Part shown: positions 7,301 to 42,511 of the stretch, piece after piece
Layout: each line of letters starts with the position of its first letter
Position numbering within the stretch: the stretch's first letter is position 1
Made by a program: the position numbers and the translations under genes
Source: Aquila chrysaetos chrysaetos
Taxonomy: Eukaryota; Chordata; Aves; Accipitriformes; Accipitridae
DNA length: 64,000 nucleotides
Assembly: GCF_900496995.4 (NCBI RefSeq)
Contig: NC_044014.1
Location: forward strand, 23,830,234-23,894,233
Direction of reading: 5' to 3'
Notes under the pieces: generated by a model
Told to the model about the DNA's origin: nothing
What the model saw: only the letters and a program-made list of their open reading frames with translations
Databases searched by the model: none

Positions 7301-8051
7301 ACAATGCTATTCTTTTAAAAACATTTATGCAGTTCAGTCTGCTTAACAGCTGATTGCAATTAAACAAAATTTATTTTTGGCCTCTTTCTGGCTTTGTTTG
7401 TATCAGTAACAAAACAAAAAAAAAAACCAAACAAGCAAAAAAAAGTTCAGTTGAAGCAACAAGCTTAGAAAGAGGCACGTTATACAGTGCCTTGGTGAGT
7501 TCCTGCTTAAAAGCCATGCTAAGCTCATCTGGTAGGTCTGAAGTTTTGTCTCGGTTTTATTAGGAAAAAGAGTGTGCTGGCTCCCTTGCTCTAATTCTTC
7601 TTGTGTGCATTATATCCAAGTTATGCTATATCCTACCAACAGCTAGAATTTGTTCTGAATATTTTGTAATATGTGTCAGAATCCTCCATTTCTTGTACTA
7701 AAATTAATGTTTGTTTAGTCAAGTTTCTCCATAATTTATTAAAATTTAGAACATAGAATTTCATAGTTTGGTTAAGTCCTCTTAGGAAAATGGCTTCATC
7801 TATATATACTAAATCTTCACAGAAATATTCTTCAAAGCAGAAGTTAACCTGTCCACGTCCTCAGCCGCTTCTCAGAACAGTTGGACAGCAATTTCTCTGC
7901 GCACCTTTACTTCCTGACCTGGTGCCTCTAATTCTTCAGTCTCATGTGATGCCATTCTTACTGAAGGAATTTACTGAGCACTCCAAATGATCAGCTCATG
8001 CAGTTAAGAACAAAGAATGCTGAAGATGAGTGTGATCAACAAGTAAATCAG

Positions 8052-15850: not shown

Positions 15851-18270
15851 TGAGGGGAGGAAGAGGGGGGAGGGGAAAGAAAAGAAAAGAGGGGAAAGAA
15901 AAGAAAAGAGGGGAAAGAAAAGAAAAGAGGGGAAAAAGAAAGAAAAGAGGGGAAAGAAAAGAAAAGAGGGGAAAGAAAAAAAAGAGGGGAAAGAAAAAAA
16001 AGAGGGGAAAGAAAAAAAAAGAGGGAAGACAAGAAAAAAAAGAGGGGAAAGAAAAAAAAGAGGGGGAAAGAAAAAAGAGGGGAAAGAAAAAAAAAGAGTG
16101 GGGAAAGGAAGAAAAAAAAGAGGGGAAAGAAAAAAGAGGGGGAAAGAAAAAAAGAGGGGAAAAAAAGGAAAAAAAAGAGGGGAAGAAAAAAAAGAGGGGA
16201 AAGAAAAAAAAGAGGAGGAGAAAAAGAAAAAAAAAAGAGGGGAAAGAAAAAGGGGGGGAAGGAAAGAAAAAGGGGGGGAGGAAAGAAAAAAAAGAGGGGA
16301 AAGAAAAAAAAGAGGGGAGGGAAGAAAGAAAAAAAAAAAGAGGGGAAAGAAAAAAAAAGAGGGGAAAGAAAAAAAAGAGGGGAAAAGAAAAAAAAGAGGG
16401 GAAAGAAAAAAAAAGAGGGGAAAAGAAAGAAAAGAGGGGAAAAGAAAAAAAAGAGGGGAAAGAAAAAAAAGAGGGGAAAGAAAAAAAAGAGGGGAAAGAA
16501 AAAAAGAGGGGAAAGAAAAAAAAGAGGGGAAAGAAAAAAAAGAGGGGAAAGAAAAAAAGAGGGGAAAGAAAAAAAGAGGGGAAAGAAAAAAAAAGAGGGG
16601 AAAGAAAAAAAAGAGGGGAAAGAAAAAAAAGAGGGGGAAAAGAAAAAAAAGAGGGGAAAGAAAAAAAAGAGGGGAAAGAAAAAAAAGAGGGGAAAGAAAA
16701 AAAGAGGGGAAAGAAAAAAAGAGGGGAAGAAAGAAAAAAAGAGGGGGGAGGGAAAGAAAAAAAGAGGGGGAAAGAAAAAAAAAAAGAGGGGAAAGAAAAA
16801 AAAGAGGGAGAAAGAAAAAAAAGAGGGGAAAGAAAAAAAGAGGGGAAGAGAAAGAAAAAAAGAGGGGAAAGAAAAAAAAGAGGGGAAAGAAAAAAAAGAG
16901 GGGAAAGAAAAAAAAGAGGGGAAAGAAAAAAAAGAGGGGAAAGAAAAAAAAGAGGGGAAAGAAAAAAAAGAGGGGAAAGAAAAAAAAGAGGGGAAAGAAA
17001 AAAAAGAGGGGAGGAAAGAAAAAAAAGAGGGGAAGAAAGAAAAAAAGGGGGAAAGAAAAAAAAGAGGGGGAAGAAAAAAAAAAGAGGGGAAAGAAAAAAA
17101 AAAAAGAGGGGAAAGAAAAAAAAAGACGGGGGAAAGAAAAAAAAAGAGGGGGAAAGAAAAAAAAGAGGGGAAGAAAAAAAAAAGAGGGGGGAAAGAAAAA
17201 AAAAGAGGGGAAAGAAAAAAAAGAGGGAAAGAAAGAAAAAAAGAGGGAAAGAAAAAAAAAGAGGGGGAAAGAAAAAAAAAGAGGGGGGAAAGAAAAAAAA
17301 AAGAGGGGAAAGAAAAAAAAAGAGGGGAAAAAAAAAAAAAAGAGGGGAAAGAAAAAAAAAAAAGGGGGAAAGAAAAAAAAAGAGGGGAAAGAAAAAAAAA
17401 GAGGGGAAAGAAAAAAAGAGGGGAAAGAAAAAAAAAAGAGGGGAAAGAAAAAAAAAGAGGAGGAAAGAAAAAAAAAGAGGGAAAGAGAAAGAAAAAAAAG
17501 AGGGGAAAAAAAAAAAAGAGGGGAAAGAAAAAAAAAAGAGGGGAAAGAAAAAAAAAAAGGGGGAAAAAAAAAAAAAGAGGGGAAAAAAAAAAAAGAGGGG
17601 AAAGAAAAAAAAGAGGGGAAAGAAAAAAAAAAGAGGGGAAAGAAAAAAAAGAGGGGAAAGAAAAAAAAAGAGGGGAAAGAAAAAAAAAGAGGGGAAAGAA
17701 AAAAAAAGAGGGGAAAGAAAAAAAAGAGGGGAAAGAAAAAAAAAGAGGGGAAAGAAAAAAAAAGAGGGGAAAGAAAAAAAAGAGGGGAAAGAAAAAAAAA
17801 GAGGGGAAAGAAAAAAAAAGAGGGGAAAGAAAAAAAAAGAGGGGAAAGAAAAAAAAAAAGAGGGGGAAAAAAAAAAAAAGAGGGGAAAAAAAAAAAGAGG
17901 GGAAAGAAAAAAAAAGAGGGGAAAAAAAAAAAAAGAGGGGAAAGAAAAAAAAAGAGGGGAAAGAAAAAAAGAGGGGAAAGAAAAAAAAGAGGGGAAAGAA
18001 AAAAAAGAGGGGAAGAAAAAAAAGAGGGGAAAGAAAAAAAAAGAGGGAAAGAAAAAAAAGAGGGGAAAGAAAAAAAAAGAGGGGAAAGAAAAAAAAGAGG
18101 GGAAAGAAAAAAAAGAGGGGAAAGAAAAAAAAAGAGGGAAAGAAAAAAAAAGAGGGGAAAGAAGAAAAAAAAAGAGGGGAAAGAAAAAAAAAGAGGGGGA
18201 AAGAAAAAAGAGGGGAAGAGGGGAAGAAAAGAAAAGAGGGGAAGAAAAGAAAAGAAAAAAGGAGAAAAGG
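15851..18270. repeat. Giant polypurine minisatellite (about 2.4 kb, 17-20 bp units)
   Basis: From just after a short mixed GGGGAGGAAGAGG lead-in, the + strand is essentially pure purine for about 2.4 kb. It is built from 17-20 bp units of the form GGGGAAAGAAAAAAAAGA, on the order of 130 copies. Edge units (about 15875-15975 and 18215-18250) read AGGGGAAAGAAAAGAAAAG. Interior units have lost the second G, giving A-runs of 6-13. Units vary in A-run length and in 3-7 G. Open frames of over 700 residues cross it on both strands, but they encode only K/R/G/E or F/S/P/L and result from the lack of T on one strand. They are not genes. It lies in the presumed first intron of USP54, whose RNA would be C/U only here. 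Such mirror-type purine tracts can form triplex DNA. Confidence 0.97.
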
Positions 18271-19320
18271 CTGCTATTTAATTCAGTCTCAATGATATGC
18301 AGCATGCTTGATTAGATATACTCTTGATTAGGTGCTGGAATAGAATTTAAAGCGTATCCTGTCTAATGAAATTATCATTATTTCTATCACTTCCTAAATG
18401 AGAACAGATTTTAACAGACTCATTCAAAATTTTTTTAGCCCATAATACATTTTTGGCAATTATTTTTAAAAGCTGTCATGTTTAAGTTATGTATTACCTC
18501 ACCAGTTTAGTTCTCAGCACAGCAGTACTTTCTTTCCTTCTGGAAACAAACACAAGACTATCTGTGTTGCTATTGTTGCAATTGCTATTGTTGCTATTGT
18601 TTTCCAAAATTGCTATTCAATGTCAAGTATATTGCAGCACAAAACCTTTCAGTTGTAGATTTTCTTTTTCAAGTCTGAGGAGCAGCACAAGCTTAGAGAG
18701 GCTTGTTGTCAGTACATACTTCTTTCTTTCAAACTGCATGGGAAACTACACAACTATTTTTCCTCCCATTTCACATGCATATTTTTTCCATGATTATAAC
18801 ACTCAGAATTTGTTCTGAAATCTGAAAAGCTCTTTGAATTCTTTTCACATGCACGATCAGCCACTACAATACCCCACAACAACTTCACCCAGCTGAAAGA
18901 CCAGAAAGCCATTGTGTCTGCAACTTTTTAAAAGCAGAAGGTGTATACTGTTACGGTTTCTATTTAGGGCTGTAATCCTTCACGAATCCTCACTCATAAT
19001 CCTCCTACTGAATGAAGGGTTTCAAGCGAAATAAAATCCTGGAAAAGCAAACAGCTTCTGCTTTTTTTTTTTTTAAGGAAAAAAAAAAAGCAGCACATGC
19101 TTTTGCCTACCTTGGACCAACATAGTAAATACAATACTATAACTGAGCAGCTTCTTCTAACCACCGGCTTCTACGCAAGATTAACTTTTAATGGCAGTTG
19201 ATCACATCTGAGTTATTAACCAACATAATACGATGTCGGCGATGTCAATTTCAAAGATCCCTGCTGATAAAAGACCTTTTTAGCCTCCAGTATCCTCTTT
19301 TTCTCCTACCTGCTACTCCT
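18271..19320. other. Non-coding sequence between repeat array and CpG island
   Basis: Ordinary AT-rich sequence. A T11/A10 pair at about 19061-19089 is the only low-complexity feature. No exon is recognised. It is probably the 5' part of the presumed USP54 first intron. Confidence 0.5.
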
Positions 19321-19580
19321 TCCCTCCTCTGAAGCCGACCCGCTGCAGGCAGGCGGGGGGGCCCCTCTCTTACAGCTGCGCCGGAGGTCAGGCCCCGGGG
19401 GCCACGGCTGCGCCGCAGCACGGAAACGCCGCTGACCGCCGCCTACCCACGCGTGGGCTGCCCGCCCTGCCACCAGCCGAGGCCAGGCCGTGCGGCCATA
19501 CGGGGCTGCACGGCTTTACAGACCTGGGAGAGTCACTGGTGGGTCTCCAGGCACATGGAACAAGTAACCAGTTAGCGGCT

Positions 19581-19605
19581 GGGGGGGGGGGGGGGGGGGG
19601 GGGGG
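19581..19605. repeat. G homopolymer, 25 bases
   Basis: The sequence shows 25 consecutive G on the + strand at the edge of the CpG island. It is the longest homopolymer in the window and may be miscounted in the assembly. Confidence 0.85.
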
Positions 19606-20037
19606 TGTTGTTTGGATTTCCCCTCCCCCCCCAAGGAGACGGGACAAGAGGAAAGAAACCCCAAGTATTCCCGAGAGCGGTGGATCCGGGGTTCCCGCCG
19701 CGCCCCGCAGGGACCCGGCCGCTGCCAGCACCGCGATACAAACTGCCCTGGCCCCTCGCCCAGCCCGCCCGCGCCGCTGAAAGGAGCGACCGCTCCCGTC
19801 CCGCCGCCGGAGCCACGGCCCCGCTGCCGCGAGGGTCAGGACGGCTCCGGACAGTCGCAGCGGGACCCCGCAGAAGCGGGGGGAGGGGGAGAAGAGACGG
19901 CGGCGGGTCGCAGCCCCTCCCCGGGGCGGTGAGTCCCTACCTGCCGGCGTCGGGTCCCGCCGCGGCGCGCAGCATCGCCTCCCCTCGGGCGCCCTCATCC
20001 CCCGCTGCTATAGCTACGGGGAGCCGCGGCAGCCGCC

Positions 20038-20047
20038 TCTCGCGAGA
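20038..20047. promoter_or_regulatory. TCTCGCGAGA palindrome (BANP-type CGCG element), copy 1
   Basis: A perfect 10-bp palindrome, followed four bases later by GCCATCTT (a YY1-type core on the minus strand). In vertebrates this motif is bound by BANP at CpG-island promoters and drives high, methylation-sensitive activity. Confidence 0.75.
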
Positions 20048-20049
20048 GG

Positions 20050-20058
20050 CGCCATCTT
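20050..20058 (-). promoter_or_regulatory. YY1-type motif AAGATGGCG
   Basis: The minus strand reads GGAAGATGGCGCC, matching the AANATGGCG YY1 consensus in the orientation usual just downstream of transcription starts. This supports minus-strand initiation nearby. Confidence 0.55.
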
Positions 20059-20067
20059 CCCGCGAGA
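20058..20067. promoter_or_regulatory. Degenerate CGCG element (TCCCGCGAGA)
   Basis: One mismatch from the TCTCGCGAGA palindrome, lying between the two perfect copies. It may be a decayed third site. Confidence 0.4.
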
Positions 20068-20094
20068 GCCGCGGGCCGCGCCGGCGGCGCTTCC

Positions 20095-20104
20095 TCTCGC
20101 GAGA
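20095..20104. promoter_or_regulatory. TCTCGCGAGA palindrome (BANP-type CGCG element), copy 2
   Basis: A second perfect copy, 57 bp from the first. Paired copies at this spacing in a CpG island are a recognised arrangement at strong housekeeping promoters. Confidence 0.75.
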
Positions 20105-20169
20105 GGGCCGAGGGAGCCCAGTCCGGCCCAGGGTAGCGCGGCGAAGCGCGGTCTGCTCCGCTTTCTCCA

Positions 20170-20179
20170 CCGCCATTTC
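20170..20179 (-). promoter_or_regulatory. YY1-type motif AAATGGCGG
   Basis: The minus strand reads CAGAAATGGCGGTGG, a good YY1 consensus. Its position about 70 bp upstream of the CGCG copies (minus-strand sense) could mark an alternative start. Confidence 0.5.
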
Positions 20180-20373
20180 TGATTTCCCCCAGCCCAGGGC
20201 AGCCCTGCCCCGGTTCGGGGCGCTTCGGAGGGCAGGGGGCCTAACCCGGTGTCCCGTCCCAGAAGGGGCGAGAGGTCTCCGGTGTGTTGTGACTAACCCC
20301 CTCGTAAGGAGGCAGCCCGTAGAGCTGTCGCCGCACCCGGCCCGAAGCCAGGGCGTAACTAGGAATAATTTCA

Positions 20374-20393
20374 GGGGGGCGGGGGGGGGGGGG
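20374..20393. repeat. G-rich run in CpG island
   Basis: GGGGGG C followed by 13 G on the + strand. It is a potential quadruplex sequence and an assembly-sensitive site. Confidence 0.75.
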
Positions 20394-20600
20394 CTGGCTG
20401 AGTCCCGGTAAGCCGCCTTACTCTGCGGAGGTGCCAGCGCTCGGGGGTCGGTGGGTGCCGCGTCCGGAGCGGGCTTGGCCGGGCCGGCGCGGCGGCGGCT
20501 GAAGCGCCGCTCGGGGCGGGCCCGGGCCGGCCTGGCAGGGCGCTCGCTGCTCGCAGCGCCCGGAGCAGCTTACCGCGGTTCAGCACCTTAAGCTGATGCA

Positions 20601-23600
20601 GCAGAGCTTGCTCGATAAAGCTGCCTGGGTAGAAATAGCTTTTTCTTGCCCGAAAAGAAACAGGTGTGCTTGCAGAGTGTGTATAATCTCGAACAGTTGC
20701 ACAGTATGGGCTGTGATGGCTGTGGGATGTGACTGGAGCCAAAGGTAACAGTCCTCCAACATAACGCCTAGCAAAAGCTTACTTGTAATTAGTGCAAGAG
20801 CTGGATTTCCTCACAGATTAGAGCCATAACATCATATGTTCAACATCATCTGTCCAAGTACTTCAGGCATGAATTAGACCATCTCAGGATATGGGAAAAT
20901 TTTAATAAAATCTTTTACAAATTTGTATTTTGATTTTCTGAATACTAGACAATGTGTAAAATTAATATTAAGCTCAGTCCCTGAATTGCATCAGCTGCAC
21001 ATGTGCAGTATGTGATTTTCCTGTCACCAGTGCAGAGTGCTGGCAATAATACTAACTGGTGGTTTTGGTGATAACCAAGATACACATTTAAAGCCCACCG
21101 AAATTAATGGGTCCTTTCCTATGGGTTCAGGATCATGCATGTAGAGAGTCTGAAGATGACTGGGGGGACAGCCATTTCCATGAGCAGTTGGTATCTCAGT
21201 GCTACCACCCTGGATAAACAGGATAAACAATGAAATTAATTACTCAAACTGAAACATGAAGACACGAGGGCTAATACACTTTCTTTTCTGCCCTTGTATT
21301 TCAGTGTTCCCGACATCTGAGAGAGATGTCCTTTGTAACAATCCTGAGAGGAGCGCCACCAGCTTTGTAAGTTGTGGAGGAAGTTCTTTTTATTCTGTTG
21401 TTGAGCCCCATTTTTACATATGAGAAGTGAGTGAGTTGATGCATAATGTTCTGTATCTATAAGATGCATTTCTGTATGCCAGAATTACCAGCTTCTGATA
21501 ATTCAGGTGTACCATCAGTAGTACACCAGATGCACAGAGGATGCCTGGAGGACTGGGACTATCTTTTGTTCTGCTCAGAGCAAACACTTAAAGCATACTG
21601 TTTGTATATACCAGTGTCTGCAATACTGTTAGTGCGGCTGCTGTTAATATGGCATTTCTAACACCACTAAAATAATACCAGAAAAAGTTTGTGCATTTGA
21701 AAGAATGCTTGTTTACTTGTTGTGACTTCCCATCCCATTTCAGTCTTTTGCTTTGGGAATCAAGCCAATCGTACTGGGAGAGAGAGCAAATGAGGAAGGC
21801 CTCAAGCCTCTCTTAGGGACCAAAGATAATTAAGAGAAACATTTAGAGATAGTAGATATAATGAAGCCCTGAATCCATGCTAGCTTCAGTCCCATTGAAG
21901 TATGTCTGGTTTTGTAATAGAATATGGAAGTAATTACTCATCTGAGCCAGGCACTGTGGAGTTTGACTGAAGCACTCTTCACTGTAATTGAATTTGTACA
22001 GCATCTGTGAGCGGGGGAGGTCCTGTGCAATAAGGCCCATAGGTTGTCCTTAGGCTGGCCAGCAGAAAGTTTCTCATTTGTTTGTTCCTCCTTCCAGGGG
22101 CCACTTTGTTTTCCCTGCAGTGAATGATGTATAATGAGATTGTTGCTTAAGGCAGGACCTTCCCCCAGTAAGAAGGGGAAGTCTGCAGCGTCCTTATTTA
22201 CCCTTTTGTGTAGAGGGATGTTTTGGAGCACAAGTAAAGCACTGCGTAGTGGGTAGCCTTTTTCACTGCTGTTAGTGCCCTCCTTGTAGTTTCTTCTCTC
22301 CCCAGCTACAAATGCAGGGAGCTGGAGTAAAACAGCGGTGCTGCTCTTGGCTCATGTCTGAGCCTGGGAAGAGTTGAGACCTTTGTCAGCTTTTCGTAGT
22401 ATGGTTGTGCCTTCCCTGTCCAAATTTCCCAAAAATAAGTGTTCCCAGTAAGCCTTGTTAGAAGAACAAAGAAGAATAACTATTTTGGTTTGGCACTAGA
22501 AGGGGAACTTAAAACCATAAATTAATCTCACCTTATTTATGCATTCATTTGTTCACTGTGGATTTTTGAAAGGCAAATGTTCATTATAACTCTGGCTAGA
22601 GCTATACCTATAACTTCTTCCTATTTTTTAAAGGGTAAGTGGTCCCTGTCTGCAGATTTCTTTGTGTCAGTTCTCCCTGAAAGTACATCAAATGGAATTT
22701 TCTTTAAATGAAAAACAGACTTTTAACATTAAAACTCTTTGCACAAAACATTTTGTGTTTTTTTATCGTTAATCAAAAGACCAAAACAAAACAAAAAAAA
22801 GAGCCTGCAGGTTTTCTTCAAAAAAGTTGGAAAATGTGCATTAAAAGTTTTTATATAAATAATGTTTCTAAAAAGTATAATTGAAAATTAAAGGAAGAGT
22901 TTATATTTGAGAATTTGTTTATTAAGCTGACTGGATTTTAGGTTTCATTTAAGAGCATTGCTTCAGAGGGGTTTATGTAGTTCTCTTCCCTTTACTGCAT
23001 GTGTTAATTAACACAATACATATTTGAGCAAGTACTTGCACTCATTAAAGCGTTGTGTGAGCTGTACTGCAAGCAGAAGATGATCATCAGAGAGATGACA
23101 CTTAACTGTGTGTTAAATACATAGAGAGCAAGAGGTACAGCATAAAGGCACTGCTAATTAATTACATAAGCTGAAGAGACTTTTACTAGTAGATGTATGA
23201 TGCCATGAATATGATTAATAGTGTCTCAAATCCCACATACTCGGCAATTCACAAAAGTTGTAGGGTTCCACAAAATGCGTGCAATCTTGCTTCTGCATGT
23301 GTCTGCAAATTCTGCTTGATTATCTGTGGTCCTGGTCAGGCCCATCTCCAAGACAGAATAGGCAACTTGTCTAAACTAGTTTGTAACCTGCAGTTTGAGG
23401 ATTTGGGCATAGATGAGATTGCATATAAATGTATTAATGTGCTGTGAGCCAGCAGGCTGGCTTGCAAACTTTTCTAATACTCATTCAAGAGAAATTAGCA
23501 TATGTGCTGCAGATGGGCAGCAGTGGACTCCATAAGTTGCCAGAGAAGTGCTAACAGCAGCTTGTTGTGCCAAGAAGCAGTCCTTTGGAAGTGGGGCACT

Positions 23601-28131: not shown

Positions 28132-28363
28132 TTACAGCTCTTCTGTTTCGCCACTCCTTGGCACATTGACCTCAGTATGGTACTCGGAGGAGTCTCCTGA
28201 AGGCATCCAAGGTATTGGGGTTCTGTTGAAGGAGGGTCTGTTGCTGAAATTTTGATTATATATCATGAGAGATTCTGGAAGCAAAGGGCAAATATCAAAC
28301 TGAGGCACTTTGAAGGTCATCCGTTTGGCTGCTTTCTCATAACCCCCGTAAGGCATGGCAGTC
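28132..28363 (-). CDS. MYOZ1: MYOZ1 last coding exon
   Basis: The acceptor CTTGTGCCAG|GACTGCC supplies the third base of an Arg codon, then reads TAMPYGGYEKAAKRMTFKV through ETEEL and a TAA stop at 28134-28132. It holds the most conserved part of the protein, including the alpha-actinin/calcineurin-binding half and the PDZ-ligand tail. Confidence 0.96.
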
Positions 28364-31300
28364 CTGGCACAAGGGAATACATGGAGTTAGCAAACCGAGC
28401 ATAGGTAAACAACGGGATTTAGAAAATAAATAATGAAAGTTACCAAGACTGTAAATTTTACCACTGTTGCAGCTCGCTGGCCAACAAATCCTTCCCAAGA
28501 ACATATATGTATCCATTGCATATGTACTAAAAAAGATTTAAAAACAACCCCCCCACACCCCTCTGCTCCTGTGCACTTCCTTCACTCCTGTTGCATCAAT
28601 CTCCATCAAACCATACACCTTTCACACCTGTTGGTACCCTGTACATGTAGGAGGCAGACACTGGGTTACTGCAGAAATGAGTGGGATTTGGGTTTGTCCT
28701 GGGTAGTGATGTCCTGAGGCTATGGAATTGGGTGGCAAAATTATATACAGAGGTTAACAGGAAATTGTTGCTGCCCTAGAAATATTTGTAAAACTTTCAG
28801 TTCTTCTCAGAAGCAGCAGGAAGATCTTGATTCTTATCTGAAGTACTGTTAGGTATATAGCTTCTGATCATAAGTATTTTTCCTGAACCCTTGAACTTTA
28901 AATGGCTGCAGTAATAAACAGTGGCAAGCTAAATCTCCCTGGTCAAATGGGGTGAGAAAGAAAGGGAAATAGGATTAAAGTCCTTTTATCCATCTGCATA
29001 GGTTTTCTGTCCATAAGCTGAATTAAAATCTCTACCTCTTAATGTATTTTCTCTTTGTAGGCCTCCAAACATTTCATACACAGGAGACTGTGCTAAGAAA
29101 ATGACATGCATCTAAAACTTACTTACATTGCACAAGACAGGATGGCTACAGCCAGGGTTATTGTATTTTCTCATGCTAAATAAACTGAATTGAATATCCA
29201 AGAAGACTTACCGGTTAAAAGACTTGTAATGGGGGAAATCAGCTTTGGGACTATATGACAGTAAGTCAATGGTGAACTGACTTTTGTCCTCAGGGCTGAT
29301 ACCCATTGCTCGTTCCCAGGGGGAGATGTAAGTTTTAAATACAGTGATTTTTTTGCCTCCTGACTTTCCATCTGTAAACAGAGGAAGGTAAAACACTCTC
29401 GTTAGATGACACTTATTCTAAATACATTGCATTTCTGTATTCTGCTATTGAAGTTGAGACACCAGCTTTGTTTCCAGATTCAATAGATTCCTCGATCAAG
29501 TCTGAGATTTTATAGTTAGATTTATCTTACATAAGACTGTCATACGCGACTTCCATCCTCGTCCACAAAAGTAGGTGTATCACAGTCTAAGAGCCACTCA
29601 TCCAGGAATTTGCATTAGAGCATATATTTGAAAGCTAGTTTTTTTCATTCTTCTCTCTGGTCGCTCAGATAGAAACCTCTTACACCAAGAACAAATGTCC
29701 TTACCCCATCATCTCTTTCACTACCTCAGGGGAAGTGTTATACAAGGCAAAATGCTATCTAATTTCATAATTTACTTCTCTCTTCTCTGTCTGATCATAG
29801 CAGACATAACCCCTCCATATAAACCTCACTGTCATCATCAGATGCAACAAACAAATCCCAGACTGTACACTCCAAAACTAGGCTCAAACTTTGAAGCTGG
29901 CTCTAACTGACTGAAAACCTTTAACCATCGTATTTCATCGTCTTGGCAACCCACAACCATCTTTACTAACATCTTCCTCAGTAGTCTATTCTTGAATGTT
30001 CTAAAATGACCCTCTCCCTTGTCTCAGTATTTTTGTAAGTTGGCATTTTCTTAGTGTTTCAATGAACAGACATTCATATTTTCCCCCTCCTGAACCAGGA
30101 TGTTAAGAGCCAAGTCTGGGTCAAACACCTCAGGATAGCTAAAAGCAGTTTGAAAATATGACGGGGTATCTCTCTGGAAGTTAAAATCCTGTCAATGACA
30201 GAGCTGCACTTTGCTGTTAAGTCAGATACTTGATTGCCAGAAATTTTAGGTTAGCTTCTGCCTGCACCATTAAGCAAATGAGCTTAGACAAGGGTTTTCA
30301 TTCAGTGTGTCTTTTCTTTTCTTTTTTTTTCTTTTCTTTTTTCTTCCAGTTGTGTATAGTACCACCTTGCTAATAAGACCATTGGTTGTGTATTGATATG
30401 TAGCACACTTCTAAGATTCTCATCCTTCATAAGCCTTAAAAATCCTGAGCAATGACTTCTGCTTAGCTTCATTAAGGCAGATGGGAATAATAGGTTAGTG
30501 GAGTTAGCCATACTGGTGCTTCCATGGTGCCACAGTTTGTGTAGAAAATGTAAGTCCATATGAAGTAAATGAACCCTATTACTCTCATCTGAAACTTTCT
30601 TCTTTATCACACCTTCTTTCTTTGTCTTGCTTATTTTCTTCAAACCTTGCCAAACCCTGGGCTTCCGTGGTTTCAGAGAATTGCAGACATGTACAAGAAT
30701 CTCATTTTCATAAAGAAGATAAAAACCATTACCCCCCTCTTTCTGTGTGAAGGACTTAAACTAAGTAATTTAGAAGTAAATTGATTGTTAGGGTTGAAAA
30801 ATAAAAGTAGTTGGGATCCAGCTCCGCAGTAAAAGCTATAGGATGATATTAATCCTTATTCTCCCTGCACACAGAAATAGGATAACAATGGAGAAAAATC
30901 TCCTGTAAGAAGACAGAGAGTCTACACAGATTTCTTTTTCACAGGGATGCCCAGAAATGTAAAAGCTGGTTTTGATATAAAATGCGCATTATTCCAGAAT
31001 GTAAATGAAAAACCTTGGATTTTACAAGTCACTCATTTGGTTACTTATGACAGTGGTTCCTGGTTCCCAAGCAAATTTGCTTTTTATTGTAAAATCCCAT
31101 AGGTACTGTTAAAATAACAATTTCACCTGCTGATTCTCATACAAGGAATTTGGTTCTAGAGGTTTCTGGCCAGACTAAACAAAGGATAAAATTAAGCAAA
31201 GACTAAATTCAATGAAAAATACTTTTACTTGTACAGATACTGCTTCAGTAGACCGGTGGTGATTACCAGATAAGATTTAGAAATATTGCTGTTCCTTTCT

Positions 31301-34300
31301 GAAGATTATCCAAAAAGTGCTGTTTGTTTAGATGGAAGCTTTGATTTGAAATCAGGGCCGATATACTCGAGACTGATGTGTCAGGTTAGACTACTGAGCT
31401 AGAGTTAATACTGTCTCCAGTAGTGGTCAGTGTGAAACCTTTGAATGGAAAGGGTATGCCATACTGGCATACTGCTGTATCAACCTTAGGAGCCCAGTAG
31501 TTAAGTTTCCCATCATTTCTTTGGTCCAACCAATGAAGGTATTTCTGCTTCATTGCTATGATGTAGCAACACAGAAGCATGCAAACAAAACTATCAAGCT
31601 AAAGGCAGTTCAACTTTTCTGGACGTTGCAATGGAACTTAGTTTGGAAGAATTCAGGTTTTAGTAAATTAATTTACTTGTCCCTAAGAGTAAGGTTGGCA
31701 TGAGCTCTGACAGCTTTAGCTATTTCTTATTCTTGCAGAGAGATACTTGCCTTTCCCAGTACCATCGCCTCCTTCTCCACCACTTCCAGCCGATTCCCCT
31801 GCACGCTCCCCTTCACTGTCCCCAGGGCCTCCTTTGCTTCCAGGCCTAGGAGGAACAGCAGGATACTGCTGCTTACTGGAGCCATGCTGCCCCGCTGTCA
31901 CTCCTCCTACCATCCGCCCATGGGCATAGCCATGAGCATCTTCCCCGTAATGCCCTCCTGGTGGGATGAACTTCTGAAAGTGATCCTAGGGCAGGAGAAA
32001 AAAGAGTAGGAATCCCTGTTACTGGACACGGTCCATTCACATTTGCAGGGTTGGGTCCCAGAATGTGAACTCCTGAGTCTCCATGATCTGACCAGTTCTG
32101 TGTCTGAGTTACAAAACCAGTGGCAGAACTTCATGTGAGTTATTCTCTGTATTCAGTATAGGAGCAGTTATAGAACAGCAGCAAGGGCGATGGTAGCACA
32201 CCTTTTAATGGATGCCTCCTAGACATTTTATATGATCAGGGTGAGAAGAGAGGGATCTGTGTATTGTCCGCAACAGTGATCAGTATGAAATACAGGAGGA
32301 AGGGGAAGGAAATGCAGCTTTTGCCAGAGCAGGTAAAGGTCCAGAAGGAGATACATTGGCTAACCTGCGGGAAAGCAAGCTGGACAAGAAATAGGAAATG
32401 TTTTCATGTCGAGGTTAAGGTAGCCCAGCCAAGTCAGCTCGATTACAGTGTGGGAGCTAAGTGTTAAAGGGCACCAGAACAACAGGGTAACTGTGACAAC
32501 ATAAAAGCCTGGAAGATGACTGCCCATATGTCTGTTTTTCATATATATATATATATATATAAAGGTCTGTATGGGGAGGGGTATTTACATGTTGAGAAAG
32601 ACTGAAGAGAGAGCAGCCTGGGAAAACATGAAAGACTTCCTGGAAACCACAAGAGGAAAATGACAAAAAGGAAGAGTTTTGTTTGTCGCAATACGTGCAT
32701 TAACGAACCAAATCTAACCAGCAACAAGGCAAGAAAGCAAGCTGTATCCATCAATAAAATCAAGTTGGTCATTATTTTCCAGGCCATCCACTCTCCCCAG
32801 TCCAGGTTAGAAGGCACAATCCCTGCAGTACATAGTGAAAGAGCAAACTGTCTATGCAGGATTTATAGACCCTGTGGTGCTAGCACAAGGTCCTGCCTTT
32901 GCACACAGCAATTTTAATAAGTACTTGTGTGGAACAGAAACTGATATGTTTGCAAAAATGTTTTATGTATTGGTCATCAGTGAGATCAAAGCTTGAATCC
33001 TATCAGATATAAAAAAGTATCTCTTGTGTATTACAAGTAACATGGGTTATATATCACATATGGTCTTTACTGTTGGACTAGGGGATTGGCTATAGCTGCA
33101 CAAAGATATAACAAATACAGCTAAAGTGAATGAATCTGTGGTTCCTCATGGTGCAATTCTGTTTGCATAAATTCATCTCAGGCTGTCAATGGGAGACAAG
33201 AGTGCCAACCTCAGGGCTGGCTCTCAGAGGGTTAAGGATTTCTCAGGGCTCTTACACCTAGTACAGTTTAGCAAAAAGAAGCTTTCCAGGCTGTAAACAG
33301 GCTTCCAAGGCCAGCTGTTCGGTCAGCCAAAAATAGATGAGAAGTGAAAACCCCACAAGGCTCAAGGCAGAATTATCTAACCCTCCGCTCCCTGTGTCTC
33401 CAGCAACAGTGTCCAGGGTTTCACAGCAGGTCACCAGGCTGCAACCCAGGCAGGCAGCCAGCTGCAGGCTGAAGTGGCAGAGCTGGTGCCCCCAGGGCCT
33501 TTAGGGACTGTCTGTCCTTCTCCTAGCTGTAGGGAATTCCCTTTTTAGGAACAGAGGAGATGATGTTCCCCTGAATGTCAGGAAGCACTGAGAGGGGAGA
33601 GGATTGTGAGCATTAAGCTGTACACAGGAGCTAGCAGGGCAATCTGTTCAATTATGCGTGGGAGCTATGTAGCTGTAAAAAGGCAAACTGAAAAAAGGGT
33701 ATTTTGAGGGCTAGGGGTCAGAATGAGGTTATTCTCAAAATGTTAATATATCTGCAAGGTTAGTGCTTCTACTGATTTGCTCAGTAATTTCAAAGCAGGA
33801 TTTGCATCTGTTTTCCTTCAAGTTTCACCCATGCTATGTGCTCTTCCTGAGAATTAAATGCTTATTTATCTTTTCCTCTGGTTACTTACATGCACTCTAC
33901 ATCAAAACATCAGCATAACATGAGTAAAACAGGCTGGTTTGGTTTTTTGCATAGCAGTATTTGATGTGACCAGGAAGGGGCATCATTGTCATCTGCTGTC
34001 ATTTTAAGTTGCAGTATTATCACCAAGCAGGAGTGAAGTTTCTCTGAAACAAAAAGTCTGCCTCAGCAAGGCCACACCTAAGTCTTATTTAGCTGCAAAT
34101 GAAATTAGTTTGATTGGTCTCAGGCTAGTTCATGATTCTTCATGGACCCACTGGGAAAACATCCTATGTTCAGCAGACATCTCCATTCAGGTAGGAAAGA
34201 CCCATTCTCCATGCAATACCCCAGTCTACTCACCTGCTAGAATAAAAATGTAATTTTCTTTAGTTTTGGCCACCACAAGAGATTGTCTTAGCTCAAAGTA

Positions 34301-37300
34301 ATAGGAGGCAAAGGCAAATTCATCTTTTTGAAATCTTGAACCTCGGTGGATTCAAATGAGCTCATTCCAAGAGAGCGGAGTTCAGGAACAGCAGTTTCAA
34401 GCAGGAGTCTCACATAGTCAAAGCTGGGTAGGTGGAGCTTTGTCTCCAGTACTTACAGCATGCCTCTGGTCAGGATGTTTGGAGTGAAATACAGCTTGCA
34501 CTTGAGGGGAACGCATGTCTTGGGCCATTGCTAAAGCATGTGGAGCTTTTACATATATGCATATCTGCATCACAAAACCGACCTCTCAGTTAGGGTTGAT
34601 TGACCCTGTTGGTGGAAACCCCAGGAGAGAAGTCCAGCAGTGTCAACCGAGAAGGCTGATAACCTTCTCCTGTTGGCTCTGGGTGCAGATCACGCAGTTC
34701 CTCTGTGGTAGGGTCTGCCCTGTTGGTGCGTTGCTAGAGGTAGTGGATGTTATCAGTCCCTGGGTGTCCCTAAATCCACTCTAACAAGAGAACAATTGTG
34801 GCAAGTTCATGTGATGTGTAGTCCCCTGGGTTGGCTAAACAAATTGGGCTCATGTCTTTGAAGTCCTTAGGGCTAGCAAGAGCCTGATCCCACAGGCTGA
34901 GTGCCTAGATGGACAAATTCTGAATTCTCTAGGGCTACTGCATGTCTTATGAAAAATAGATAATGAAAGATGATCCAACTAATGGAGCTGAGATCTCTTA
35001 AGTATCTCAACGCCCTGATGTCACTGCAGGCAGTCCCCACGAGGAGACACTGTGTGCTCCCCGTCAGCTCCTTGCTGTGCCTTGAAGAGAATGATTGAGG
35101 CCACCAAATGTGTTTCTATTTCCACCTCACTGATAAAGAGCTTCCCAAAGGTTTGATGCCTATGTGGTTACTAACACTTCTGAAGTTACTGTGACTGTGT
35201 CCTCTCAGTGGCAGCCACTCAAATGCTCCTTAACGGTGGGATGGGAGATTTAAAATTCAGACACTTGGAGAGTCTCATAGAATGCCTGCTGTTTTTATCA
35301 AAGTGTGTGCCTCGGTCCTTAATTTGGAGTTCCACTGCCTTAAACCTATGATTCACTTTAAAAAAAAGGATGAAAATAAAAAGTAACCTCAGCTGTTGAA
35401 GGATCATAAGCTAATTTTTTTTTAAACATGCTCCCCAAAGAGGCACCATTCAGTGGGTTGAGCTCCTGCTCTCTATTTTCAGGTCTACTTCTGACTTGCT
35501 GTTCAATCTTAGGCAAATTATTTTTTGCCTCTATGCCTGAATTTACCCATCTAAATAATAGGAATTTTTATCTAATACTACCCTGAATTATTTATATCTT
35601 ATTTGTATATTTTATGTCATCCTTGCCACATTTTCTTTGTGGATGAAAGAAACTGAGTTTCAGAATTTCGGTCCAAAGTTTTGTCACAGTGCTCTAACAA
35701 ACTGCTATGGAAAATAAAAAGGCTCTTCCTCTCTGTCATTCTGCTGTTTCCACACAACTCAATTCTTGAGTAAGAAGGCATCAGACTTCATGTTCACTCT
35801 TACACAGCTTTGGGTATAGTTGGGACCTCTAGGTCTTCCGGACCAATCCAACTCCAGCACAGCTAGGCTCATTTTGTTGGAAAAGTTACATCTCAGCTGG
35901 CTTGCTCCACTTAGGTCATAACCTGAGGCTCTCTCGTATCTCAGCTCGTGGTTATCCTATAACATTTGTTCAAGAGGTTTAATATTCCCTGCAGAACAGA
36001 CTTCCTAGAAAGAATGCTTTTCCTAACATTTTCCCCTAAACGCTACCTCCAGTGATCTTGATTGGCATTCTTCTGAGTACATTAAGGGGGAAACAGAGCC
36101 ATCAGTGCACGCTTGTGTATTAAACCAAGTAGCTGCATGATAATATCTCTGTTCCTCCGTCCTTATGCTTTCCTTCACACACTGTATCATGTCTGGCTAT
36201 TTAACATATAAAGATCTCTGAGGTAGGTTGTGTACTTCTGTCTGCTGTGAAGCACCACTTTTGGTGTTGTAACATAACCACTTCCATTTTCTTGCTGCAA
36301 CCTCTGCTTACTCCTCTGAGTTCTTGTTCAGCAGCAAAAGGAATACAGGGTAACTCCTGCCGTTATCCAGAAGAACAGTAATCCAGTTCTTTAACCCTTT
36401 TTCACTTCTTCTGTTTTGTTTCACAGTTGATGTCTTAGCTTATCCGAAGAAATCTCTTGACCTGAAGACCAGCAGAAATTACTTGGCAACACACATTCAG
36501 CTTGTCTTCATACAAACACTGCCAAGATGTGGAAATGGCATTTATTTTAACTTGTGGGCGAGTCTGAGAAAGTATCAAGGTGGGTTTTTTTTGTTTGTGG
36601 GTCTTTGGTTTTTTTATGTACTACTGCTGATAATTGTCTACTCAGATATTGGTCATTCCACCTTCCCAATGGTTTTGATTTAAGATCTGGTATGTAAAGC
36701 AGAAAGGGCGGGGGGAGGCAAATCAAGTCTTTCTCTAAACTGTCTCCTGCATGTAACCCAAATCAGGCCACTGGATTTGACTAGCAGAAAGTCTATTTTT
36801 AAGGATCCTCACTGGAAGAAAAACAGTGTAACAGCAACACCCAAAAAGCATAACTATGGTTTTGTTTTCAGTTTACTCTTGATGATAGCAAGAAGGTCTT
36901 ACGCAGAGGTTCCCAAAGTGGCCGGGGGACCTTGAGAGAATTTAGGGCAATAATGACTGGAGCTGTAAGGCTAAGAAGCATAGTTTCACATGATCTTGAT
37001 GTGTTTGAGGCCAAACAAATTTAGCATTGTGAAGTGGAGAAAAGGTCTCTGAACTGCTGATCTATTAACTGCTAAACAGTGAAGTGGGATTTAGGAGACC
37101 CCGAGATAAGACTGAGACCCTCTCTATGACTTTAGGTGATTCATTAATCTACCCTATGGTTCAGTTTCACTGTTAAAAAATACATGTAGTAATTTCCTTT
37201 ATGCTATAGTTGGTCAGATGCTACAGTAATAGAGCACATAGCAAGATAGATAGGATTTCATCATGGTCTTTAGTCAGTAGCGAATAGCATCTTGCAGCTC

Positions 37301-40300
37301 CACAGTGAGGTTGATAATATCCTCTAAGACATGGAGAAAACCACAGTTCCTGCGACAGGGTGGCACAGCCTGGGGTGAGGAGAAGAAATCCTTCTTCTGA
37401 TTTAGTAGACAGGGCTCAGGAGAGCCCAGCTTCTCCAGCACAGCACCAAACAAGGAGGATGTCACATGAACCCTCCCTGTTTGGCAGGGTATCAGTGTGC
37501 TAGAAGTGTCAAACTCAGCCCTCCCTAAAAACATCCCCTTGTACTACATATTTGCAAGAGAAGAGGGTCACAGTATTGAAAACAGCTATGCAGTAGGTAG
37601 TGCATTTCATTTTGCTCATGTTGGGAATGGTCGGTCCTTTTGACTGTGGGTTTAGCTACTGTTTGCCTTTAATTGGATGGGTGGAGCCGCAGCAGTGATA
37701 GAGTGGCAGGTTTTCACTTTTGCATGGAGCTATCTGACATTCACGCACACACCATATATATGTTTTCTCCTCCAAAAGTAAGGAGAGTGATCTGATTGTC
37801 CAGTGTGGTTGTTTGGCTGCAGAAGGAGGAGGAGAGAAGCAGGAGGGTGATCAATGACAGGTGACTGCTGAGATCTTCTCCCTTGTGTGGAAGGTTTATG
37901 GCTACAGCACAGGCTATTCTGGGACCCCTTATATGGTTTAGATTTATTTTTAATAACCTTTCTCTTTGTGTGTTTTTATATTACATTACCTTGCTGTTAC
38001 ACTTTTGGGGGAAAGAAGCCATCTGTACTCCATCCCAGAACTTTCTTGACCTGCTTTGCTAAGCGTGTCCTGAGAATATTCTGATAGTTAAGAAATCTGT
38101 GATATAAAAGCAGAAAACACGACCAGCTTTAAATCCCTCCACTGTCCCACAGCCTTAAAGGCACAAGGACTTCTTTGGGATGGGGAGAAAAGGATGTGGA
38201 AATTAACTGGGAGGGGGAAATAACTGGAAGTAGCAGTAGGAATTCTTTACTCTGCCATTATCTTCTTCCCACAGTTCCCTTTTGTTTAAGCCTTCTTTTC
38301 TGCATCTGCCTTTGAGCAGAGCCAGGAGCAACAAAGGAAGGGAACAGAAAGCTAATAAAATATTGCAATCAAAAGGGCTTTTTGATGAAAGTTATTTGAT
38401 GCTAAGGTCAGGCACTGTCCTTATGGTTTGGAAGATAACAGTGAGGCCACAGATCTGTTGCCTTTACCTGCCCAAGAGCAACCAGCTGTCCGAGAGCATG
38501 GCTCAGTTGCTGTGATCGCTCAGCTTTTCTTCTCACTGCTCTGACTGCCAGCAAAGGTGCTAACTCATACTGGCTGTGTTCATGAGAATAGTTATCCCCA
38601 GAGGCAGTGGATGCAGCCTGGCAGAGTCCTTGCACAGAGCGCACAGGGCAGCCAGCAAATGGTAACAATTACGTTTGTGATCCTGCTAAGCTGGCCCCAA
38701 GTGAAGGCTCTAGGGCTGACCTAAGTCTTCCTGCACTGACCAGTGGAGATTTGTTATCTGTACCATGCATGTGGAGAAAAGATAGCCTTGAAAGTGAATC
38801 ATGGAGGATTTTAAAGCAGAGTATCAGCTGCTGTTTGGAGACTGTTCCATTGTTCTCATATAGCAAAGCCATAAAGAAAATCCTAGGCTTGTTAGGGTCT
38901 TGTCTAACCCCCAAGTACATTTCTCCACAGCACAGTATCTTACAGTCTTGTTCAAAGAGCTTGGCAGCAGGGGTATTCTTACAGAATAGAGGGAGAGATT
39001 CACTACAGAAAGGGTATGGTGTGAAAGTCGGGCACGGATGAATAAACAAAGTAGGAAAAACAGCTAACAAAAAAGAATTGATTGTCATCAGCCTTTGTAA
39101 TGTCAGTCCTGGAGGGACTCTCTGCATGTACAGTTTTGAGTCAGTTTGTCAAAGCTCATTCGCTTTGTATTTCTCTGATTGGACACACTTAAGTGACACC
39201 CTCAAATTTTATAAGTTTGGACTTCAGCTTTTTTATTCCCTCACCTTACTATTTTCTCACTCCTCCTCACTGCAGCGGATTTTGACATATGAACTTGGCC
39301 CTCTATGTTTTAGGAGCTCTGAGATTGCTGAGTATTTATAAAAACAGCTTGCATTTCTCTAAGATTTTCATCTGAAGAGTCCAAAGTTCAACACACCATT
39401 CATTCTCACATCCTTTCTAGGAGATAGCTCACTGAAGAGATGAACTACCTAAAGCACAAAGAGATGAAGAAACTGCCCAAAGTCTAACACCAGATATGCT
39501 TGCTATATCTCCAGTCTGTCATCCCTGATCTGTAATCTGACCTACTGTTGTAATTTTAATGACTTTTTTTTTTCCCCCCAGGCATCTTTCCACATCCTGC
39601 TTCCCAAATTGTCATTTTTAGAAGTGAACTACAAAGATTTACTTATTGCTGCTTTTAAAAACATCAGAGGGGTAAAAAATAGCATGTTGTTGTTTGGCAG
39701 AACATTTTCTTCAGCTTGACTTTTATTATTTTGCTTGAGTTTCCTTGGACTGGAAAATAGATGCCGTAAAGGGATAAAATGACACCAAATAAATTTTAAA
39801 TAACATCAGAAGACAAGATTCTACATCAAAATGCATATGAACCTGAAAAATTTTCTATTTGTTTTACTGTATTGCTGACAATCATGTGAAAGGAGAGTTT
39901 AATTTGTAAAAGTTTAAGTATCTTCAGAAGACTTTACACCAGCAACTAATGTAGAGAGAAGTTCAAAGATTAAACAACAGTACTAACTCATGGGAAAGGG
40001 AAGAAGAAGAAGAATGTCTGAATTTATACACCGTATCTGATAGAAAAATACTTTAGAAGACAACAAATGTAGCTTCTAGCAAATGAATTGAAGATATTGC
40101 AGTGTCAGGTTAGAGGTTTCTGTCTGAATTTTCATTTGTGGAACCTCCTGCAGAAATGAGCAGAGGACTTTGCCCAGCAGGAAGCATAAAAGGGTATCCT
40201 AGGCTAAAAATAGAACTGCACCTACTGGAGCTGAAGTCAGACCTGGATGGATCATTTCCATCCTGCAGAGAAGAAATGGAATGGGTACAAAAACAGTTAG

Positions 40301-42511
40301 TCCCACCCTGCGCAGCTCTGAACATGTGCCAAACATGCAGTCCTCCCTCGTCACTCAGTACTGAATTTTCTCATGCCTCTGCATGTGTGAAACCAAGTAT
40401 TTGCCAAAGGAAACTAATGCTGCTGCCGAAAAGAAATAAAACTTGTGGTTTTATATTATTTTGTCTTTTTCCTGCACTACTTTGCTAGTAGATCCCCACC
40501 CCCTGGCCCATGCACATACAGAGGAGAGCTTGGGCACACTCCATTCCTGTTTCCCCTGGGTGTATGGAGCAGCTTTTTAGTTTTAATCTCCGACCTACCA
40601 CAGAACTGTCGGTGAAGGCATCAGGGTTATTTTCATAAATGAACTTCTCCACCCTCAGCTGACGTAATTTGAACATCTTGGATCCTTTGTTAGTGAGGAG
40701 AGAAAGCTCTTCTAGCATCACATCTCTGGGGATGCTGATCTTCTTTCCCAAGTTCAGCTTGGACACCTCTTGTGGCATGACTACAAAACATAAAAAATGG
40801 GACACTTTAGGAAGTGCTCTGGTCCAAGTCTCTTGGCCATTGCTTCCCAGCATCAGTAGTGTCTTCAAAGCAGCCAAATTCTCTTCTAAATTAAGTTGTT
40901 AGGAAATAACCTATGCACCAAATTTTTACACTGATGACACTTTGGATATAGATGGGTGAAATTTACTCTGGATTGCAATCAAGGCAAATCTACCCAGAGA
41001 AGAGTTGCGTAAAGGTGGAGCTAGATGCACGTGTCTCACATCTGAAGCACCTCAGGCAGTGCAGCAGGATTCCTTAGTACTGCCTCAAAATGCACCACTG
41101 CCTTGTCTGGTTACTGCTTTACACTTGCCTCCCCTCCTCTGGAATTAGATGAGTGGCAGTCAGCTCTTCGGATTGGGCCAACATATAATAAATAAAGACA
41201 ACTCTGGCATGCTTTGGTTTAAACATTATCCTGAAACCATGGCAAGATTCAAGGTTATTATATCTTTTTGTTTGTTTGTTTTAAGGAGAATTTTTTAAGG
41301 AAAAAGTAGTTGAAGTTCTCTTCAAGTGTTAATGTGCTGGTTACTCAATAAGTCCTTTTCCATTTAATTTGGTACCACCAATTCTCCATCAAAACAAGGA
41401 ATTCAAACATTTTCAGTGTAAAAATCTTGCAGAAATGCAGTTAAAGCTTTTCATTCAGAAACAAGCAACTTTTCCTAGGCTTTCTTTTTTCTGTATTAAG
41501 CAAGGTTAAGACCACTTATCCACCTCTACATCTCATTTCCAACAGAGAGTGAACCTCCATCCTTAAACTGGTATAAAACTGGTATAAGCCCATTTGTTTT
41601 ATTAGACAATCTCTGAAGAAATTATTATTTTTTTAGCAAGCCAATTTTATATAGCACTCTTTCATAGCACAGGACAAAATGTCCTTTAACTGCAAATTGG
41701 ATTTTTACTTATTTGTTAACTTGAATAAAGGATTAGGGACAAACAGAAAAATATATACCTGTACCCTAGCAAAGAAGTTTCTACAGCCCTTTTGGGGGGC
41801 TGAAGAAAGGGACAGCACTGAATTATTACTTTTTAAAACCTCTAAAAATCTTCCCCATGCTGTCAAAGGTAAAGAGAAGATAGGGATATCACAGTTAATT
41901 AAAAGTCACCCTACCCAATACACAGGTATTCTGTGGAAAGGAAAGTGTCCCAAGTTATATTCTTCCTGCTGTATTACCCCCTCTAAAAGACTTTGACTTT
42001 TTCAACTAATGAGTGCTGGAATCAAAGGAATTCTCTCACGTAGAGGAAAAACAAATTAGAGACAAAGGTTATAAGAGAGAGAAAAAACATAGAATATAAC
42101 TAGGCACTGCAATATTGATACCCATAATAGATCATGTTCTTTTTCCATTCACATTGGTGTGCATCCAAATTAATGCTGCAGGAGGATATGGGTTTACAAA
42201 GTGCAATTTAGGTCAACATTTGGCCTGAGTGTGTGTGCAATGCTTTTGAACAGTAAATTAGAAAATGTGATGTGGTTGAAGGCTGAGTTTCAGTAATATT
42301 TGTGGGTTTGTCTCCTGGTATGTTCACTGCATGTCTTGCTCTGGGAGTTCAGTCAGACAGGGTATGAAATTTTAAAGGCTGAAATTCAGGTTGAAATCCA
42401 AACAATTCTCACGTGTGCAGGTTTGCATATCTTACCTTCGTGTGTCAGCTTCCCAATGAGTTTAGTGGACTTTTTCCTTTTAACAGGAGCAGGAGTCCCT
42501 GCAAGGGGCAT
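28132..42511 (-). CDS. MYOZ1: Myozenin-1 (calsarcin-2 / FATZ-1), five coding exons
   Basis: Z-disc protein of fast skeletal muscle. The family binds alpha-actinin, filamin C, telethonin and calcineurin, tethering calcineurin signalling to the sarcomere. Five minus-strand coding pieces (76, 182, 235, 160 and 232 nt) join in phase to 885 nt, a predicted 294 residues against 299 in human. The start MPLAGTPAPVKRKKSTKL matches the human N-terminus. Next comes the conserved block LNLGKKISIPRDVMLEELSL and FKLRQLRVEKFIYEN (about residues 31-75), then a Gly/Ser-rich variable middle (about 87-170). The conserved C-terminal half follows, with TVFKTYISPWERAMG and PYGGYEKAAKRMTF. The protein ends NRPSFNRTPIPWMPSG...ETEEL, the class III PDZ ligand of this family, which binds ZASP/ALP-type proteins. 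The exon 4 donor is GC rather than GT. No frameshift or stop interrupts it. SYNPO2L lies upstream in the same orientation. Confidence 0.96.
28364..29211 (-). other. MYOZ1: MYOZ1 intron 5
   Basis: An 848 bp GT..AG intron, phase 2, with donor AACCG|GTAAGT and acceptor GTGCCAG. Nothing else is recognised in it. Confidence 0.9.
29212..29371 (-). CDS. MYOZ1: MYOZ1 coding exon 4 (fifth exon)
   Basis: 160 nt. The acceptor TCTGTTTACAG|ATGGAAAG enters in phase 1, giving D-GKSGGKKITVFKTYISPW, ERAMGISPEDKSQFTIDLL and YKSFN, then the strong donor CCG|GTAAGT in phase 2. It aligns with human ITVFKTYISPWERAMGVD...YKSFNR. Confidence 0.95.
29372..31750 (-). other. MYOZ1: MYOZ1 intron 4, GC-AG type
   Basis: 2379 bp, phase 1. 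The donor is GGGAAAG|GCAAGT and the acceptor TGTTTACAG. Only the GC donor keeps the reading frame and the family alignment. No repeats of note are seen. Confidence 0.8.
31751..31985 (-). CDS. MYOZ1: MYOZ1 coding exon 3 (Gly/Ser-rich middle)
   Basis: 235 nt. The acceptor CTGCCCTAG|GATCAC begins in phase 0 with DHFQKFIPPGGHYGED, aligning with human DHFQKFLP. A low-complexity G/S/Q/H region follows (QHGSSKQQYPAVPPRPGS, GGPGDSEGERAGESAGSGG). The exon ends after GTGK plus one base at 31751, where the next two bases are GC. The middle is shorter than in human, which accounts for most of the length difference. Confidence 0.93.
31986..40598 (-). other. MYOZ1: MYOZ1 intron 3 (8.6 kb)
   Basis: The largest intron, phase 0, with donor GTG|GTAGGT and acceptor CTGCCCTAG. 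It contains a TA microsatellite at 32541-32561. Several overlapping open frames of up to 152 residues (for example near 38.6-39.1 kb) show no resemblance to known proteins and occur on both strands. I treat them as chance. Confidence 0.88.
32541..32561. repeat. (AT)n microsatellite
   Basis: Ten and a half AT dinucleotides without interruption, in MYOZ1 intron 3. Its length is probably polymorphic. Confidence 0.9.
40599..40780 (-). CDS. MYOZ1: MYOZ1 coding exon 2
   Basis: 182 nt. The acceptor ATGTTTTGTAG|TCATGCC completes a Val codon, then reads MPQEVSKLNLGKKISIPRDV, MLEELSLLTNKGSKMFKLRQ and LRVEKFIYENNPDAFTDSSV. It ends in phase 0 at GTG|GTAGGT. It aligns nearly residue for residue with human MYOZ1 residues about 31-82. 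Confidence 0.96.
40781..42435 (-). other. MYOZ1: MYOZ1 intron 2
   Basis: 1655 bp GT..AG intron, phase 1, with a strong donor CGAAG|GTAAGA. No embedded feature is recognised. Confidence 0.88.

Follow-up and report, generated by a model that had tools for sequence, protein, structure and literature searches.

A locus-private 2.4-kb purine minisatellite in a probable 5′UTR intron of USP54 in Aquila chrysaetos chrysaetos

What is a stretch of about 2.4 kb, almost all of it purine on one strand, doing upstream of the USP54 coding exons of Aquila chrysaetos chrysaetos, and how might it have arisen? The DNA analyzed here, referred to as the window, is 64,000 bp in length and corresponds to positions 23,830,234-23,894,233 of a 43.8 Mb contig (C11) in a genome of 1.23 Gb and 144 contigs; positions are counted from the first base of the window, and negative values lie to its left. 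Our analysis identified a real, unusual and locus-private purine minisatellite, which probably resides in a germline-transcribed 5′UTR intron of USP54 and is most likely neutral.

The anatomy of the array can be read directly from the sequence (Table 1). A preliminary description of this DNA had reported a minisatellite of 2.4 kb consisting only of purines; its length and tandem organization were confirmed in the assembled sequence, while its purity had been overstated. The tract is not the single uninterrupted one that had been described, as it is broken by three pyrimidines (C16030, T16099 and C17127) into pure purine runs of 178, 68, 1027 and 1143 bp, the longest being those of 1143 and 1027 bp; the preceding base, 15851, is a T. 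TRF assigned to the array a period of 18 or 19 bp, 125-126 copies, 86-87% matches and a score of up to 3186, which comes near to the roughly 130 units estimated earlier. Units of 18-19 bp arranged head to tail are within the limits of 11-60 bp stated for minisatellites in the accessible part of a paper (PMC4992247). As one of its strands is almost entirely purine over more than 1 kb, the stretch is likewise a long purine-pyrimidine tract. Cutting at GAGGG yielded 116 pieces with 50 distinct strings, the most frequent being the A8 form (31 times) and the A9 form (20 times), and 92 of the 111 parsed G-runs consist of exactly four G, GGGG being present in most units. Units with an A4-G-A4 tail account for four of the first five units and reappear toward the right end of the array. 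Further inside, the A4-G-A4 string is matched by four pieces only by way of an A4 spacer or a compound piece.

Table 1. Positions of the array, its parts and neighboring features (window coordinates unless a contig is given).
Feature	Position	Strand	Remarks
Homopurine tract	15852..18270	purines on +	2419 bp, 3 of them pyrimidines; the opposite, pyrimidine strand (-) would be the USP54 sense strand
Tandem array, unit GAGGGGAAAGAAAAAAAA(A), variable A-run	15870..18255	+	about 125 copies
Left edge: four units GAGGGGAAAGAAAAGAAAA and one relative	15870..15965	+	
Eight identical 18-bp units in succession	16862..17005	+	
A4-G-A4 tails resembling left-edge units, at right edge	18218-18253	+	
CpG island A, two TCTCGCGAGA motifs	19101..20900		candidate upstream USP54 promoter
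Candidate exon-1 donor CGGCAG/GTAGGG	19931..19950	-	found by eye, consensus only; junction 19941/19940
Calsarcin-domain exons (PF05556)	28135..40778	-	span of best stretches
787-aa open frame	55675..58038	-	
CpG island B, between array and USP54 start codon	C11:23822634-23823883 (window -7599 to -6350)		

Outside the window, the longest purine or pyrimidine run measured 38 bp in the adjoining 100 kb on its left side. In 100 kb of other sequence it measured 35 bp; this is a small sample of ten 10-kb stretches, out of 60 places drawn, all within the first 9 Mb of contigs 1-20. A one-strand purine tract of 2.4 kb is far beyond chance.

The array had been assigned to a USP54 intron in the preliminary description, and this placement is supported by minus-strand coding exons downstream of it as well as by a compositional skew that ends at a CpG island. 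With a presumed human USP54 sequence that begins at residue 1 and extends to about residue 840 as query, 15 coding matches were obtained at E up to 1e-3. All 15 are on the minus strand and in order, and they lie to the left of the window, between -33.6 kb, where residue 1 is encoded, and -74.6 kb. The same query detected no USP54 exon inside the window at E up to 1e-3, and another search of the window with a presumed USP54 sequence gave no convincing match among the matches listed. The position of the array relative to the exons is thus directly observed: the start codon is located 33.6 kb beyond the window, and the array 49.5 kb upstream of the start codon, so that, if the array belongs to USP54, its location is a 5′UTR intron. 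Pfam searches of the three minus-strand frames of 1-15 kb and 18.2-28.1 kb returned no domain, and Rfam at gathering scores gave 0 matches. The Calsarcin-domain exons, which we take to be MYOZ1 by synteny, and the 787-aa frame, which we presume to be SYNPO2L-like, agree with what we take to be the gene order, USP54-MYOZ1-SYNPO2L, and thereby fix the neighborhood. In a Pfam scan taking in the 787-aa frame, a single family, Calsarcin, was recovered (E 9.2e-12). The candidate exon 1 ends at 19941, and 1671 bases (about 1.7 kb) separate the tract from this exon end. The array is, therefore, probably located within the first, 5′UTR intron of USP54, near the start of the gene.

Three CpG islands are present in the joined region of 164 kb, at -99.4 to -97.4, at -7.6 to -6.35 (island B) and at 19.1 to 20.9 kb (island A), and the edge of island A is about 0.8 kb away from the array. 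The TCTCGCGAGA motif in island A is our own presumed identification. A run of 25 G on the plus strand (19581-19605) also lies inside this island. In vertebrate introns, the coding strand has an excess of T over A and of G over C, as reported for mammals and fish in the accessible part of PMC2927911. The corresponding skew was determined per kilobase on the minus strand after masking of the array, of long one-strand runs and of islands, but not of exons. For the USP54 coding region, the skew sum amounted to +0.154 ± 0.014, with 95% of the 41 intervals positive. Between the start codon and island B it was +0.202 ± 0.017 (all 26 intervals positive), and between island B and the array +0.149 ± 0.015 (all 22 kb positive), similar to the coding region; the single interval from the array to island A gave +0.086 with a negative T/A part (-0.061). 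From island A to MYOZ1 the sum was -0.052 ± 0.025, with one of seven intervals positive, followed by -0.027 ± 0.022 in the MYOZ1 stretch, +0.010 ± 0.022 at 41-55.6 kb and +0.062 ± 0.036 in the SYNPO2L-like stretch at 58-64 kb; the region from -97 to -75 kb yielded +0.096 ± 0.020. Between -33.5 and 28 kb, the best change point fell between the intervals starting at 18.5 and 21.0 kb and was matched in 0 of 2000 permutations, with means of +0.176 (96 intervals) and -0.059 (14 intervals) on either side, island A being left out. The skew is not general, as the MYOZ1 and SYNPO2L-like stretches, which are also minus-strand genes, show little of it; this might reflect germline silence of these two genes. 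Over 20900-41000, which comprises MYOZ1 and its 3′ side, the minus-strand skew S is about 0 or slightly negative. Since the skew over the minus strand stops at island A, it supports germline transcription that would start at this island and cross the array, the splicing to USP54 being a separate step. Island A is probably an upstream USP54 promoter. Island B, downstream of the array, may be a second or the main USP54 promoter and, as it is nearer to the start codon, the use of island A as upstream promoter is still something we infer.

The repeat itself is restricted to this place. A 28-mer covering two units has 23 exact matches in the genome, all 23 inside the array, and an 18-mer of one unit has 83 in 1.23 Gb, of which 75 are in the array and eight are scattered singles; the reversed 18-mer, used as a control, gave four. 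Judged by exact matches, the array is private to one locus. A 24-base pattern of the unit had 0 exact matches in viral contigs, and none of the listed papers that mention both USP54 and a tandem repeat describes such an array as far as titles and the first parts of abstracts indicate. A transposon as carrier was rejected: the left flank (351 bases) and the right flank (701 bases) match one place each in a search that skips very common words, and no dispersed element was seen. A CR1-like 3′ end at 8047 (two mismatches) was dismissed as well, as 12 of 100 shuffles also have one, and a second CR1 pattern, which we presume to be characteristic, gave 0 matches. Similarly, the 8-bp direct repeat AAAAGGCT (15822-15829 and 18265-18272) was discarded as a target-site duplication, given that an 8-mer is common to 295 of 4000 random flank pairs; its presence on both sides of the array may be due to chance.

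Taken together, we consider it likely that the array is a locus-private minisatellite which was amplified from a short purine seed within the USP54 5′UTR intron, and that it is without function. The seed would have been a short local purine-rich motif, probably GAGGGGAAAGAAAAGAAAA, the form that appears to have been kept at the edges of the array. Loss of the inner G from GAGGGGAAAGAAAAGAAAA would have created the A8-A9 run, and strand slippage together with unequal exchange may then have multiplied the unit to about 125 copies. Presumably, the array is transcribed from the upstream island as a C/U-only stretch and is subsequently removed with the intron. Local homogenization is directly visible: of the 115 pairs of successive units, 23 match exactly, compared to 12.0 ± 2.8 after shuffling (0 of 5000 shuffles), and the block of eight identical units represents a local and recent event of this kind. 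Among the clean pieces (65 of 116), the mean A-run increases from 7.9 in the left half (n = 33) to 8.8 in the right half (n = 32; p = 2e-5). The long A-run holds the largest single share of indels, with 54 of 142 insertions relative to an 18-bp reference and 56 of 71 deletions relative to a 19-bp reference. Counting against a neutral view, the tract is more faithful to purines than plain point mutation suggests, although many of the differences may represent slippage. With regard to base changes, the tract departs from the unit by 35-53 A/G differences but has only three pyrimidines, which may point to a bias toward keeping purines but is confounded by slippage. The array is nonetheless most likely neutral and without a specific function, while side effects such as exclusion of nucleosomes by the A8-A9 runs or binding of pyrimidine-binding proteins are possible.

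Several other explanations have to be weighed against this neutral minisatellite. Purine repeats are hard to sequence, and the length of the array might be an assembly artefact, that is, an over-expanded or mis-polished repeat; homopolymer errors could explain part of the variation in A-run length. However, the contig is 43.8 Mb long, there is no N in the window or in the 100 kb to its left, and 50 distinct strings among 116 units in a spatial order do not resemble a simple assembler loop, which renders an artefact rather improbable. Poly(dA:dT) disfavors nucleosomes, and the array might be a promoter-side chromatin element in which spaced A8-A9 runs keep about 2.4 kb nucleosome-free and aid the CpG-island promoter. 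The array is located within 1 kb of island A and its sense strand has 121 runs of at least five T, but its main periods (19.4 and 17.9 bp) do not correspond to a whole number of helical turns, and only weaker peaks occur at 9.8 and 21.4 bp; we therefore regard such an element as very unlikely. The array might also be H-DNA or a different non-B DNA element at which polymerases pause, comparable to the tract in PKD1 intron 21, in line with the triplex formation suggested in the preliminary description. The nearly pure purine content over 2.4 kb and the GGGG in most units would fit, and mirror arms of at least 10 bp have 99 centers in the array (40.9 per kb, compared to 12.1 in shuffled sequence) and those of at least 12 bp have 50 (20.7 compared to 3.5 per kb). 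Moreover, the accessible part of PMC11696556 describes inhibition of replication by PKD1 intron 21 and G4 formation by a repeat derived from this intron. However, mirror arms of at least 15 bp (spacer up to 8) have 0 centers in the array compared to 380 in 600 bp of (GAA)n, and the mean 60-bp mirror identity is 0.556 compared to 0.550 after shuffling, with a maximum of 0.867 in both; for (GA)n this identity is 0, an artefact of the even window, and that control counts by its arms only. Canonical G4 motifs (four runs of at least three G, loops 1-7) number 0, as they do with loops of up to 12, and 25 are found with loops of up to 16. Also against such structures, S1-seq in mouse gave little or no signal at non-mirror pyrimidine repeats in the accessible part of the report (PMC9171763), and short AAAAG repeats form neither triplex nor quadruplex, unlike AAGGG, although a triplex is considered possible by the authors when AAAAG tracts are long (PMC10563062, accessible part). 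Given the absence of long mirror symmetry from the unit, the triplex idea is weak, even though arms of 10-12 bp exceed those in shuffles, and a pausing element of this kind is unlikely.

With regard to RNA, the C/U-only intron might be a PTBP1/hnRNP platform that binds PTB-type proteins, either as a sponge, as put forward in the preliminary description, or as a local splicing silencer. In 2419 bases, the pyrimidine strand has 514 overlapping or 242 non-overlapping YUCUYY/YYUCUY motifs, a density about 20 times that measured for this strand in the flanks (155 motifs in 15,851 and 615 in 45,730 bases), along with 107 UCUUUC, and human PNCTR RNA acts in this way with 2178/565 motifs (PMC6224606, accessible part). 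In 200 shuffles of the same bases, however, overlapping motifs numbered 712 ± 29 and non-overlapping ones 231 ± 8; as the counts in the array are below the former and close to the latter, the density, despite being about 20-fold that of the flanks, follows from the C/U composition. In addition, HeLa cells are stated to have about 36 PNCTR copies and about 286,000 PTBP1 molecules in the accessible text of the same study (PMC6224606), and, with the number of nascent introns assumed to be ten, less than 1% of this PTBP1 would be bound, so that the nascent intron is probably too scarce for a sponge. The absence of an AG, which had been part of the same proposal, is correct inside the tract on the sense (minus) strand, but a first AG appears 16 nt past it, at 15837-15836; a cryptic 3′ splice site at this position might be marked by the tract and hidden by PTB. 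The sole sense-strand A of the tract is located 248 nt before the tract end, which leaves this AG without a usual branch point. Hence, the sponge idea is weak and a PTB platform as a whole is doubtful, while binding of PTB in cis is possible.

By analogy, the array may be grouped with long intronic purine tracts such as that of PKD1 intron 21, and it resembles avian intronic sequence stuttering. The human PKD1 intron 21 polypyrimidine tract is 2.5 kb in length and has, by the title of a paper, many H-DNA-forming sequences. The two tracts are alike in length, in their intronic position (a probable one here), in the pyrimidine-rich sense strand and in the purine repeats opposite; the PKD1 tract is absent from the mouse orthologue and hence not conserved, which we count as a further likeness. 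In contrast to PKD1 intron 21, for which the accessible text gives 38 G4 motifs, the A-rich unit of 18-19 bp has neither long mirror repeats nor canonical G4 motifs. In stuttering (PMC12954441, accessible part), a local short sequence is massively expanded within an intron in imperfect tandem copies, as appears to be the case here in a genome of the same avian type; the exact matches are private to the locus, and the intron is a probable one. However, stuttering has been described for chicken dot chromosomes, and the array is purine-pure and located on a contig of 43.8 Mb. PNCTR (PMC6224606, accessible part) is similar as a repeat-derived RNA with YUCUYY/YYUCUY motifs in the hundreds, but it is a lncRNA, whereas the array is intron sequence with less than half of the non-overlapping motifs of PNCTR, at a density not above that of shuffles. 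The RFC1 AAAAG/AAGGG expansions (PMC10563062, accessible part) resemble the array as purine repeats composed of A-rich and G-rich portions within an intron (a probable one here), but are pentamer microsatellites with disease alleles and not an 18-19 bp minisatellite. Recombination in birds concentrates at CpG islands, and its enrichment in zebra finch was measured within 100 bp of islands (PMC12047795, accessible part). By analogy, CpG-island recombination could feed expansion of the array, which is about 0.8 kb away from the island edge. It might even be speculated that an intron outside the dot chromosomes is undergoing a stuttering-type expansion by such recombination with a purine-keeping bias, and that its C/U nascent RNA forms a PTB-coated, splice-silent zone in which the adjacent AG remains unused; we regard this combination as quite unlikely.

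The minisatellite adds, beside PKD1, a vertebrate example of a kilobase-scale one-strand purine tract in a probably promoter-proximal intron, and, as its unit is without long mirror symmetry, the array is of use as a natural control. Stalled replication or S1 sensitivity at the array would mean that purine purity alone suffices for such effects; should neither occur, mirror symmetry or G-quadruplex motifs would be needed. A second purine array of the GGAGA/GAGGGA type, with the purines on the plus strand, is located at 59270-59616. It has eight centers with mirror arms of at least 15 bp, two of them with arms of at least 20 bp, and would, as judged from its sequence, be a better H-DNA candidate than the main array. 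A pure purine run of 157 bp, partly (GAAAA)n-like and also with the purines on the plus strand, is present at 61076-61232.
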